A stretch of DNA of 48,363 bases from assembly GCA_036504215.1 (NCBI GenBank), contig DASXVO010000074.1, positions 1-48,363 on the forward strand. The letters are read 5' to 3'. The position numbers were made by a program, and so were the translations under genes. The DNA comes from Vicinamibacterales bacterium. Its GTDB lineage: Bacteria > Acidobacteriota > Vicinamibacteria > Vicinamibacterales > Fen-181. Of the stretch, positions 32,790 to 37,256 are shown in pieces (the stretch's first letter is position 1; every line of letters starts with the position of its first letter). Below the pieces are notes generated by a model. The model was not told where the DNA came from. It made no database searches and saw only the letters and a program-made list of their open reading frames with translations.

Positions 32790-33941
32790 TCACTTGCGCA
32801 ACGTCTCGAGTGCCTTCTGCAGGATCGGATCGCCCGGCGGCGGCGTCGCGCCAAACTCCACGTCGGGCACGTCGACGGCGATCGAGGGCGTCAGTCCCTT
32901 CTCGTGGATCTGCGCGCCGGCTGGTGTCAAGTACCAGCCGTTCGACACGAGCATCGCGCTGCCGTCGGGCAACCGCACGAACTTCTGGACGGCGGCGCGT
33001 CCCTGGGTGTGTTCACCAACGAGTTGCGCGCGCTTGTTGTCGGCCAGCGCTGCGGCGAACAGTTCCGACGCACCCGAGGTGCCGTCGTCGACCAGCACCA
33101 CGGCGGGCAGCTTGACGACGCCGTCACCGGCCGCGGCCGCGACCTGCTGGCGCGCTGCGCCACGCATCTGCTTGACGCTGATCGTGCCGCTCGGCACGAA
33201 CAGGCGCGCGATGGCGATCCCGGCATCGTACGCGCCAGTGGCCGTGTCGCGCACGTCGACGACCAGGCCCGTCGCGCCGTTGCGGGCCAACTCCGCCGCC
33301 TGGCTCGCCACGGCGGCGGCGGCGGTCGGACCGAACGCGCTGATGCGGATGATGCCGGCCTGGCCATCGAGGCGTGACGTCACCTCGGCGCCGCCGAGGG
33401 TCTCGCGCGTGACCTCGACGGCGTGCGGGTCGGCGGCGTTGCCGCGGATGACGAGCAACGTCACCTTCGTGCCGGGGGCGCCGCGCAGCAGGCGGCGTCC
33501 TTCGACCACCGACATCTCCCGCGTGGGCTTGTTGTTGATCGCCCGCAGGAAGTCGCCGGCATGCAGGCCGGCCCGGGCCGCTGGCGAGTTGTCGCGGGTC
33601 GCAATGATGCGCAGGTAGTAATTCCGCGTCAACTCGATGCCGGTCTCACCGGTGGCCGTCTTGTCGCCACTCTCGAACAGCTGTACTTCGTCCGGTGGCA
33701 GGTATGCACTGTCGGCATCGAGTCCCTCTGCCAGGCCCCGCATCGCACCGCGCATCACGCGGCTCAGATTCGCCTCTTCGACGTAATTGCTCGAGATGAG
33801 CGACAGGACGTCCTCGAAGATGCGGAGGTGCGGATAGGCGTCCTGTCGCGCCGACACTCGGCCAAGCATGCCGCCGACCACCACGAAGGCAAGGATCGGG
33901 GCCGACACGAACAGGACAATCAGTCGAGTGCGGACAGTCAT
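32790..33941 (-). CDS. S41 tail-specific protease homologue with substituted catalytic dyad
   Basis: The 383-residue protein has an N-terminal signal anchor (LIVLFVSAPILAFVVVGGML), a PDZ domain (about 95-170) and an S41 fold. In CtpB and Prc the Ser nucleophile and Lys lie 25 residues apart in SASASE and GKGxVQ. Here the aligned stretch is DDGTSGASELFAAALADNKRA then HTQGRAAVQ, which puts Gly290 at the Ser position and Arg315 at the Lys position; Ser289 and Ser292 flank. It may be inactive, or use a shifted Ser. It follows the EnvC-like gene by 51 bp, the usual envC-ctp order, so a cell-wall role is likely. Confidence 0.85.
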   Translation of the reverse strand: MTVRTRLIVLFVSAPILAFVVVGGMLGRVSARQDAYPHLRIFEDVLSLISSNYVEEANLSRVMRGAMRGLAEGLDADSAYLPPDEVQLFESGDKTATGETGIELTRNYYLRIIATRDNSPAARAGLHAGDFLRAINNKPTREMSVVEGRRLLRGAPGTKVTLLVIRGNAADPHAVEVTRETLGGAEVTSRLDGQAGIIRISAFGPTAAAAVASQAAELARNGATGLVVDVRDTATGAYDAGIAIARLFVPSGTISVKQMRGAARQQVAAAAGDGVVKLPAVVLVDDGTSGASELFAAALADNKRAQLVGEHTQGRAAVQKFVRLPDGSAMLVSNGWYLTPAGAQIHEKGLTPSIAVDVPDVEFGATPPPGDPILQKALETLRK

Positions 33942-33992: not shown

Positions 33993-35162
33993 CTACCGCC
34001 GCTCCTTCAGCCATTGTAAGGGATCGACCGGTTTACCGTCGATTCGCAACTCGAAGTACACGGCCGGGGTGCCGGCAGGACCGGCGCCCGCGGTGCCGAT
34101 GGGTTGGCCGGCGATCACGGTGGCGCCCTTCTGCACGCCGAGCGATCCGAGATAGCCGTAGAGGGAGAATGCCAGGTTGCCGTGATCGACGATGACGAGT
34201 TGGCCGAATCCGGTGAAGACGTCGGCAAAGGCCACGCGTCCCTCGTGGACGGCCCGCACGGGCGCGCCATCGGCGGAGGCAATCTCGATCCCGCTCTGGA
34301 TCGTCGAGGTTCCGAAACGCGGGTTGCGATGTCGGCCGAAGCGGGAGGTCACCGCTCCCAGGGCGGGCCACTCGATCTCGCCGCGGAACGGACGGATCGG
34401 GAGCATCACTGGCTCGGCCGCCGACGCCGCGCCGACGGCGGCGACGGTCTGTTCGACCTTCTGCCGTGCGGACTCCAACTCGCCAACCATCTGGGCCGCC
34501 AGGTCGCGGCGGGCGTCGATCTCACGCACCATCTCGGCACGTGCCTCGGCCGCCTGGGTGGCGCGTGCCGCCGCGCGTGCCGCATCGGCCTGCAGTGCCT
34601 TCAGCCGCGCCGACTGTTCGTCGAGCGCCGTTCTGGCTTTCCCAAGCTCCGCGAGCGACGCCGCGAACTGCGCGACGCGTCGCTGGTCCATCGCCGCCAG
34701 GGCCGAGACCATGCGCGCCGCGCGGCCGGCGTCCTGTACGTTGTCGATGCCCAGCAGCACCCGGGCGTAGCCGGGGCGCCCGAGCTTGTAGACGTCGACC
34801 ATGCGGGCGTCGAGACCAGGGCGTGCGGCGTCGATGGTCTGCTCGACGGTGCGGATCCGGACGGTCGCGTCCTGGATCTGCGCGGTGACGCGTGCGGCGT
34901 CGGCATCCAGCCTGCGGGCTTCCTCGACGCGCAGGTCGCGCTCGATCTCGAGCTTCCGCAGGTCGCCGAGCAGCGTGCGTTCCTGTCCGGCGAGCGCGTC
35001 GGCCTCACGCTGCAGGGCACGAATGCGATCGGCCGCCCGCGACGCGGTGTCGAGCGAGGAGGGCTGCTGCGCGGCAAGGATGGCGCCGAACGCGATCGCA
35101 ATGACGGCGGCGCAGGTGTTGGGGCGGGTCTGAAACCCGCCCCAACGTGTCTGGTGGTTCAG
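33993..35162 (-). CDS. EnvC-like murein hydrolase activator, degenerate LytM domain, no standard start codon
   Basis: From CTG 35162 the product is 389 residues: a possible signal helix AAVIAIAFGAILAAQQ, long coiled coils (about 35-240) and a C-terminal LytM domain. The domain resembles E. coli EnvC (SLYGYLGSLGVQKGATVIAGQPIG, YFELRIDGKPVDPLQWL) and lacks zinc ligands: HxGxD is QSGIE and the last His is Tyr, so it probably activates amidases rather than cutting wall. The first ATG (34802) would discard the signal peptide and much of the coil. No ATG, GTG or TTG occurs in frame back to the stop at 35199. CTG 35162 has GGAG seven bases upstream. A palindrome (35118-35146) encodes part of the N-terminus. 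Confidence 0.8.
   Translation of the reverse strand: MNHQTRWGGFQTRPNTCAAVIAIAFGAILAAQQPSSLDTASRAADRIRALQREADALAGQERTLLGDLRKLEIERDLRVEEARRLDADAARVTAQIQDATVRIRTVEQTIDAARPGLDARMVDVYKLGRPGYARVLLGIDNVQDAGRAARMVSALAAMDQRRVAQFAASLAELGKARTALDEQSARLKALQADAARAAARATQAAEARAEMVREIDARRDLAAQMVGELESARQKVEQTVAAVGAASAAEPVMLPIRPFRGEIEWPALGAVTSRFGRHRNPRFGTSTIQSGIEIASADGAPVRAVHEGRVAFADVFTGFGQLVIVDHGNLAFSLYGYLGSLGVQKGATVIAGQPIGTAGAGPAGTPAVYFELRIDGKPVDPLQWLKERR
35118..35146. repeat. perfect palindrome at the 5' end of the EnvC-like gene
   Basis: Arms gttggggcgggt and acccgccccaac surround loop ctgaa. If the CTG 35162 start is right, it encodes RWGGFQTRPN of the n-region; otherwise it lies in the leader. Confidence 0.75.
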
Positions 35163-35174
35163 GGTCGGTCTCCA

Positions 35175-35196
35175 GGGGCGGTTTTCAACCCGCCCC
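35175..35196. repeat. imperfect palindrome after the lipoprotein gene
   Basis: ggggcgg and cccgcccc arms around ttttcaa start two bases after the stop of the gene at 35199. It could protect or end that transcript; it resembles the palindrome at 35118-35146. Confidence 0.5.
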
Positions 35197-35198
35197 GA

Positions 35199-37256
35199 CT
35201 AGAACAACGGCTTGCCGTCGATTTCCTTCGGGATACCGACCCCAAAGTACTTCAGAACGGTTGGAGCGATATCGATGATGCGCGCCTGATCGGCGGTCAG
35301 CCTGCGGTTCGACAGCAGCGAGCCGGGGATCGTCTGGTAGTCGAACGAGCAGTGGTCGCCGCTCCACTTCTTCATGTTCGGGTAGAGCAGGCCGGCCGGC
35401 GAGCCGCCGAGCGAGGTTTGCCACGACACTCGGTAGCCGTCGACGAAGCCCACCTGCAGGTCCGGGGCGTTCGCGATGTACGGGCCGGCATACACATCGT
35501 CCCGCTTGTAGACGTTGCTGACGATACGCTGGCCGGTTTTCGGGTCCGTCATCGTGAGCAGCCGGGCGGAGAGCTCGTCGGCGAGGCGCTTGTAGTCCTC
35601 GCCCGGGTTCACGATCCCCTGGCCTTCGCGCCCCTTCATGTTGAAGTAGATCTGCCCGAGGCCCAGCGAGTAGGCGCGAGTGCGGGTCCAGTCCACGTTT
35701 TCCCAGAACTGGCCGCCGCCGCCGAACATGTCGTTCAGGTTCTTCGCGCCGACCTCCCTCCCGGGCCGCGCGATGTAGCCGTTCTCCACGAGCCACGTGT
35801 TCAGGTTCACGCCGTACTTGAACGAGTGGAAGCCGTGGTCGGACATGACGAAGACGAGCGTGTCGGGTTCGATGCGCGCGAGCACATCGCCCAGCAGTTG
35901 ATCGCACCGACGGTAGACGCGCTCGATCGAGTCGCCGTACTTCGCCGCGAGCGCCGGGTCGTACATCGGGTGCGTGGGGTCGATGAAGCGCCAGAACATG
36001 TGTTGTACGCGGTCGGTCGATTCGAGCACGCCGATGACGAGGTCGAACTTCTTCGAGTCGACCTCGTGCAGGATGACCTGCGCCCGGTCGTCGAACGCGC
36101 GGAACAGGTCGTCCATGAACGTCTTCTCGTCGATCCGGTCCTCGTTGAGCGGCCACGTGGCCTCGGCCCAGCCCAGCGTTCGGTACGTGCCGAGCCGTTC
36201 GTAGAGATCCTTCGAGAGGGACGCGGGCGACGAGATCGGCATGACCGGCGATTCCGGCCGCCAGTTGACGGGGGACATGTAGAGTTGCAGCTCGCCGTTT
36301 GCGCGCACGAGGAAGAACTGCGTCATGCCGTACAGACGGATCAGGAAGTTGACCCGGAACTCGAGCGGCACCCACTTGCTCCACTGGCTCTCGTTCAGGT
36401 GCACGGTGGTGCCCTGCACCTCGATGGTCGCGCTCTTGGCCTCGCGATTCCAGCGGATGCCGAACGGAACCCGCACGTCGCGCTTGGCCTCGAGGTCCAC
36501 CATCCTGGCGTGGTCGGCGTCGCCGAGGGTCGCGCCCTTCTTGCGCAGCTCTGCCATCTGCGCCTGGATGATCGGATTCGGCGCGCCCACGATCTCGCTC
36601 TGCGCCGTGTCGCCTTCGAAGACGAGCCGCTTGAGGATGCCGCCCTGCTCGGTGTTGCCCTCTTCGTAGCGGCTCAGGTCGGTGGCGAAGTAGGAGAAGG
36701 TGCCGACCGTGCCGCGAATGTCGGGCAGCGGAAGGCCGGAGAGCAGTTCGCCGGCGGGCACGTCTTCGGGCGGGAACGTGATGGGCACCGTCAGAATCGC
36801 CGACCGCACGCCAGCCTGGCCGGCGGTGACCCAGAACGACGTGCCGCCACGCAGCGTCGTGATCTTCGGGCGCCCGAGCGGAACGTAGTTCAGGAAGAAC
36901 TCCGGCATCTCCCGGCGCACCATCCCGAGGTCGGGCACGTACGTCTTCACGTCGCGCACGAGGAAGTCGAAGATGTTGTGCTTGGCCGCGTTGCCGCCGA
37001 TGGCGAACGACGCCCACGACGTCGGGGACTCCGGCGAGGTCGAGGTCTGGAGGCGGTAGAAACCACCTTGGCTGGCCAGTTTCTGGAAGTTGGGCAGCTT
37101 GCCCTCGCCCATCCACTTCTCGACGAGACGGGGATCCATGCCATCGAAGCCGAGGATCACCATCTTCTGTTTGAACTTGGCCGGGGCAGGCGTCGAACCG
37201 CAGGCGGCGGCAAGCACCAGCGCCAGCAGCGTGAGCACAAGACGTCGTGTGTTCAT
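35199..37256 (-). CDS. alkaline-phosphatase-superfamily (type I phosphodiesterase) lipoprotein
   Basis: The 685-residue precursor has a lipoprotein signal RLVLTLLALVLAAAC with the acylated Cys near residue 19. The mature part opens with VILGFDGMDPRLVEKWM and SPESPTSWASFAIG, giving the metal-binding Asp and the Thr/Ser nucleophile of phosphodiesterase/nucleotide pyrophosphatase enzymes, and continues with LVFVMSDHGFHSF for the second metal site. Such proteins hydrolyse phosphodiesters or transfer phospho-groups outside the cytoplasm; the substrate is not readable. An extended -10 (TGCTATACT) lies about 35 bases upstream within a palindrome. The EnvC-like gene follows 36 bp after its stop. Confidence 0.88.
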   Translation of the reverse strand: MNTRRLVLTLLALVLAAACGSTPAPAKFKQKMVILGFDGMDPRLVEKWMGEGKLPNFQKLASQGGFYRLQTSTSPESPTSWASFAIGGNAAKHNIFDFLVRDVKTYVPDLGMVRREMPEFFLNYVPLGRPKITTLRGGTSFWVTAGQAGVRSAILTVPITFPPEDVPAGELLSGLPLPDIRGTVGTFSYFATDLSRYEEGNTEQGGILKRLVFEGDTAQSEIVGAPNPIIQAQMAELRKKGATLGDADHARMVDLEAKRDVRVPFGIRWNREAKSATIEVQGTTVHLNESQWSKWVPLEFRVNFLIRLYGMTQFFLVRANGELQLYMSPVNWRPESPVMPISSPASLSKDLYERLGTYRTLGWAEATWPLNEDRIDEKTFMDDLFRAFDDRAQVILHEVDSKKFDLVIGVLESTDRVQHMFWRFIDPTHPMYDPALAAKYGDSIERVYRRCDQLLGDVLARIEPDTLVFVMSDHGFHSFKYGVNLNTWLVENGYIARPGREVGAKNLNDMFGGGGQFWENVDWTRTRAYSLGLGQIYFNMKGREGQGIVNPGEDYKRLADELSARLLTMTDPKTGQRIVSNVYKRDDVYAGPYIANAPDLQVGFVDGYRVSWQTSLGGSPAGLLYPNMKKWSGDHCSFDYQTIPGSLLSNRRLTADQARIIDIAPTVLKYFGVGIPKEIDGKPLF

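Follow-up and report, generated by a model that had tools for sequence, protein, structure and literature searches.

A REP-like palindrome doublet and a candidate CTG start at the beginning of an EnvC-like gene without a standard start codon

Three genes follow one another on the minus strand of the window (the whole 48,363-nt stretch of Vicinamibacterales DNA that was analysed): a phosphodiesterase-family, lipoprotein-like gene, an EnvC-like gene and, in the same run, a gene for an S41 (Ctp-like) peptidase (Table 1). The EnvC-like protein resembles EnvC, a murein hydrolase activator, in its signal helix, its coiled coil and its C-terminal LytM/M23 domain (Pfam, structure match), and the closest solved structure is an EnvC-type chain (8i6o_E, E 9.7e-26). 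Its LytM domain appears to be without the usual metal ligands, as in EnvC: in the alignment, SGIEI and VYFELR occupy what we take to be the places of His in active M23 enzymes. Against the NCBIfam EnvC model the protein scores 97.7 bits, under the curated equivalog cut-off of 270, and we therefore call it EnvC-like; besides this score, its phosphodiesterase and S41 peptidase neighbours set it apart from EnvC.

Table 1 Features of the EnvC-like gene and its junction with the upstream gene
Feature	Coordinates	Strand	Evidence
Phosphodiesterase-family lipoprotein-like gene, upstream	35199..37256	-	Pfam PF01663, E 5.9e-35
REP-like palindrome P1, imperfect, directly after the upstream stop	35175..35196	-	GGGGCGGGTTGAAAACCGCCCC, 3 mismatches to the pattern
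GGAG, Shine-Dalgarno-like	35170..35173	-	7 nt before CTG
Candidate start codon CTG	35160..35162	-	Only near-cognate codon between upstream stop and helix
REP-like palindrome P2, encodes RWGGFQTRPN (basic n-region)	35118..35146	-	GTTGGGGCGGGTTTCAGACCCGCCCCAAC, perfect 12-bp arms; family members in G000, G001, G002
Hydrophobic core of signal helix, CAAVIAIAFGAILAA	35070..35114	-	Translation
92 codons above the first ATG, conserved in relatives	34803..35078	-	61% aa identity to G001
First standard start (ATG), internal to the conserved gene	34800..34802	-	Direct reading, ORF listing
EnvC-like gene read from CTG, 389 aa (signal helix, coiled coil, degenerate LytM/M23 domain)	33993..35162	-	Pfam PF01551, E 1.2e-22
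S41 (Ctp-like) peptidase gene, downstream, same run	32790..33941	-	Pfam PF03572, E 3.7e-34

Read directly and by ORF listing, the reading frame of the EnvC-like gene runs unbroken from the TAG at 35201-35199 to its own stop at 33993, and no ATG, GTG or TTG occurs in it between that TAG and the ATG at 34802, which agrees with the 120 N-terminal codons devoid of these starts reported by the first-pass annotation. The TAG is the stop of the upstream gene, which shares the frame of the EnvC-like gene, a point that the annotation had missed. Readthrough of this TAG (35199-35201) would join the upstream lipoprotein, which has its own export signal, and the EnvC-like protein in one exported fusion. 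We consider this highly improbable, since two genes share a frame by chance in one case out of three, orthologs show other frames and separate starts, and no special readthrough context was seen.

The genome is a 90-contig draft, and the 448 kb of it sampled for an ORF survey show no general habit of non-standard starts. There, only two others among 340 coding-like ORFs had a late first start (>50 codons); both were rejected as second cases, one being antisense to an etfB/etfA-like pair and the other a merA-like gene broken by deletion, which leaves the EnvC-like gene as the sole credible missing-start case in the sample. The merA-like gene (L161:5587-6918, on G000:C59) carries its internal deletion and frame break after AVIGSGGGAMAAAL.

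We compared the codons above the ATG at 34802 with those of the nearest relative, which belongs to the same genus (G001). Residue identity above this ATG (Table 1) is close to that of the rest of the protein (67%), and the per-site changes at the first, second and third codon positions are 0.26, 0.15 and 0.51 above it and 0.24, 0.20 and 0.47 below it; the third-position excess recurs, less sharply, in more distant relatives. Because the residues above 34802 are about as constrained as the rest, translation must, by this comparison, begin higher up. A start at 34802 itself, the counter-case that the first-pass annotation had allowed for, is hardly credible: it is the first standard start codon in the frame, but the resulting cytoplasmic fragment would be without conserved sequence, namely the signal helix and a large part of the coiled coil.

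The lack of any standard start in frame could also mark a recent start loss that has left the gene hardly expressed or silent, an early pseudogene, and an ortholog with in-frame stops indicates that loss can occur in the order. This explanation is unlikely in our estimation, as all 389 codons are open, codon use is normal and residues are conserved, and the genome holds no close second copy of the gene (other M23 matches are at most 35% identical). Judged from these sequence features, the EnvC-like gene is a real gene under constraint. The ortholog with stops (L066, G019:C5) has them near its N-terminus and is possibly decaying or frame-shifted.

What is usual at this position can be seen from about 92 orthologs of the order with a readable 5' end, which is cleanly readable in 85 of them. 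A standard start precedes the signal helix in all but two of the ~92, the exceptions being the gene described here and one ortholog in G013, and 83 of the 85 have such a start with a basic n-region between it and the helix. These starts comprise 47 ATG, 29 GTG and 7 TTG, and lie a median of 11 residues from the helix (quartiles 6 and 18); the corresponding distance from the CTG is 16 residues. Several overlap the last codons of the upstream gene (for example GATGGCAAGCCGCTGTTCTGA), so there is often very little space between the two genes. In the G013 ortholog (L020, G013:C230), the start region consists of TATCG/CCATCGTC repeats, and a short way upstream there is an ATG that is out of frame, an arrangement like that of phase-variable starts prone to slippage; slippage is therefore the likely reason for the missing start there.

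At the junction studied here, two palindromes, 28 nt apart, form a doublet that fills the space between the genes. P2 had been recorded by the first-pass annotation, and P1 had been missed. On the minus strand the order is P1, GGAG, CTG, P2 and the hydrophobic stretch. As RNA, P2 would form 12 Watson-Crick pairs and one G-U pair (-25.1 kcal/mol), and it is the longest perfect palindrome among the start regions of 90 orthologs. P1 has a relative with the same GTC flank and nearly equal length on another contig of this genome (G000:C39). Both conform to a REP-like family with the consensus GTAGGGGCGGGTTTCAAACCCGCCCCTAC, which begins with GTAGGGGCGGGT, the GTAG end, and whose GTAG arm is the better conserved; the P2 copy reads GTTG at this end. 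At no more than one mismatch, the family has five sites in this genome (G000), three in G001 and eight in G002, with none for a reversed-pattern control and none in G003-G006; at up to three mismatches there are 28 sites vs 8 for the control. By these matches, the palindrome at the gene start belongs to a REP-like family that is small, dispersed and present in three species of the genus.

The family resembles GTAG-tagged REPs in being made of short palindromes (20-40 bp, as in the GTAG REP/RAYT system) that are dispersed in the genome and, in the consensus, have GTAG at one end. Several copies adjoin gene 3' ends, where their GTAG can provide a TAG stop. GTAG-tagged REP elements likewise lie beside gene 3' ends and in some cases provide the TAG stop; they sometimes occur as dimers, and a number have been reported at ORF N-termini (Di Nocera et al. 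2013, PMC3733652). The family differs from them in three ways: copy number, often over 100 per genome in the GTAG REP/RAYT system, amounts here to 3-8 good copies per genome in the three species; P2 reads GTTG/CAAC; and the repeats beside the RAYT-like gene of this genome are others. That gene, a RAYT-like Y1 transposase gene with several GGCACGGGCG..CGCCCGTG-type palindromes on both flanks (L076, G000:C54:194460-197687), gave the one Y1_Tnp match found in the sampled genome. A cognate RAYT flanked by the P1/P2 repeat was not among the finds in this genome: the flanking palindromes are of the TGGCACGGGCG type, another family, and we rejected the gene as the mover of P1 and P2 on this ground.

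Palindromes with arms of at least 9 were present at this junction in 7 of 90 orthologs vs 1 of 93 coding controls, a weak excess that includes palindromes within the upstream gene, and we did not retain a general enrichment. By eye, a different GTAG...CTAC palindrome lies at the same junction in G004 (L008, G004:C309), a separate species within the genus; in view of it, palindromes may have landed at this junction more than once.

The first-pass annotation had singled out the CTG, with GGAG seven bases upstream, as the best candidate start, and had placed P2 between it and the hydrophobic core as the source of the n-region. Both proposals hold up: no other near-cognate codon precedes the helix, and the P2-encoded RWGGFQTRPN directly precedes CAAVIAIAFGAILAA. 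Initiation at CTG would give a protein starting (M)NHQTRWGGFQTRPNTCAAVIAIAFGAILAAQQP, which is plausible as a signal peptide with its n-region encoded by P2; the coding score of this ORF is highest one codon upstream of the CTG. SD-like motifs are used in this genome (87/257 genes vs 28/257 at a control position; for GGAG at -15 to -5, 60/257 vs 15/257), so the GGAG raises the odds of the CTG about fourfold; its chance rate in that window, about 6% of positions, counts against the CTG reading. In the predicted RNA fold (region z -3.7), P1 (-16.0 kcal/mol alone) and P2 form separate hairpins flanking the candidate start, with GGAG and CTG in a weakly paired stretch between them. Counted from the C of the CTG, the start of P2 is 16 nt away, at the limit of the ribosome footprint.

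ATT serves as a start codon in rare cases (infC, pcnB), and the ATT at 35100-35102 (or the ATC at 35094-35096), inside the helix, is another near-cognate candidate whose position relative to the helix is near that of the ATG in G001. We regard it as improbable, because it stands four residues into the hydrophobic stretch, has no SD-like sequence and would leave the protein without the basic n-region present in 83 of 85 orthologs.

CUG accounts for 0.024% of bacterial starts, with an output of 0.86% of that of AUG in E. coli (PMC11497404), and reconstructed switches from a standard start to CUG number about 3e-5 to 4e-4 per start (PMC5622118). Given the 0.024% share, use of the CTG is a priori unlikely, which leaves room for an assembly error or poor expression. 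Like the rare bacterial genes initiated at CUG, the EnvC-like gene joins a near-cognate codon and an SD-like sequence to constraint and the absence of a standard start, with the difference that the CTG here is a candidate only. An error, for instance a one-base indel between or just after the repeats, could conceal a standard start in another frame: a one-base shift would bring either of two TTG codons into frame, at 35185-35187 (on P1) or at 35142-35144 (on P2), the assembly is at draft stage, and hairpins are difficult to sequence. Few genes in the 448 kb are broken, however, and the perfectly complementary arms of P2 and the near-equal length of P1 and its C39 relative make an indel inside the arms unlikely. 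This symmetry argues against an indel inside the arms and not against one between or after the palindromes, and we rate an error overall as unlikely while granting it some weight.

The reading we favour, tentatively and with a little less than even confidence, is that the doublet displaced the original start, that translation proceeds from the CTG and that P2 encodes the basic n-region. The doublet of REP-like palindromes would have arrived by insertion at the phosphodiesterase/EnvC-like junction and taken the position of the relatives' start codon, removing the old start. Translation would then begin at the CTG behind GGAG, in the 28-nt gap between the hairpins, probably at low efficiency, and the P2 codons would provide the n-region of the signal peptide. 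As a guess, ribosomes ending the upstream gene 37 nt earlier perhaps help initiation at the CTG; equally speculatively, a low dose may be sufficient for an activator protein. The first-pass annotation's claim that an insertion moved or destroyed the start stands in part. The dispersed nature of the repeat and the relatives' standard starts close before the helix speak for it, whereas the alignment of this 5' region with relatives lacking the palindrome, which it had proposed as a check, yielded no flank-matched empty site: the junction is unalignable and completely different in every relative examined. Because no relative has an empty site with matching flanks, such an insertion is the likeliest history only.

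Repeats at ORF N-termini and rare non-standard starts are already known, and the EnvC-like case is a variant of these. In Rickettsia palindromic elements (RPE), palindromes are translated in frame within proteins, N-termini included (PMC3733652). The present repeat, read from the CTG, would likewise contribute in-frame residues to a protein; the difference is that it stands at the start of a secreted protein, together with the absence of any standard start. A literature search on repeats at gene starts with signal peptides returned nothing direct.

Elsewhere in the order, two orthologs (L019 in G011, L023 in G029) have SGFSR as the n-region of their signal peptide, encoded by the palindrome GTCCGGCTTCAGCCGGA(C). 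Sites of GTCCGGCTTCAGCCGGA at up to one mismatch number about 421 in G011 (both strands), 167 in G082, 39 in G076 and 4 in G029, and at two loci of G082 (L184, L190) the palindrome lies in frame (SGFSRT) within apparent longer coding frames, like translated insertions. Of 30 sites inspected, no more than a few suit an n-region, and we rejected the idea that n-regions generally derive from SGFSR-type repeats. The broader proposition, that mobile palindromes arriving at junctions in this order recurrently become translated starts of secreted proteins and furnish their basic n-region (in the EnvC-like gene, and as SGFSR in the G011 and G029 orthologs), and that the weak CTG here reduces or adjusts how much of a cell-division factor is made, seems doubtful to us.

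The cell probably either starts the EnvC-like protein at the CTG or makes little of it. Standard annotation would cut the protein short by 120 residues and label it cytoplasmic. If the favoured reading is true, a conserved cell-division gene runs on a start codon that gene finders ignore, and the locus would show cleanly how, in nature, a dispersed repeat can rewrite the beginning of a protein.
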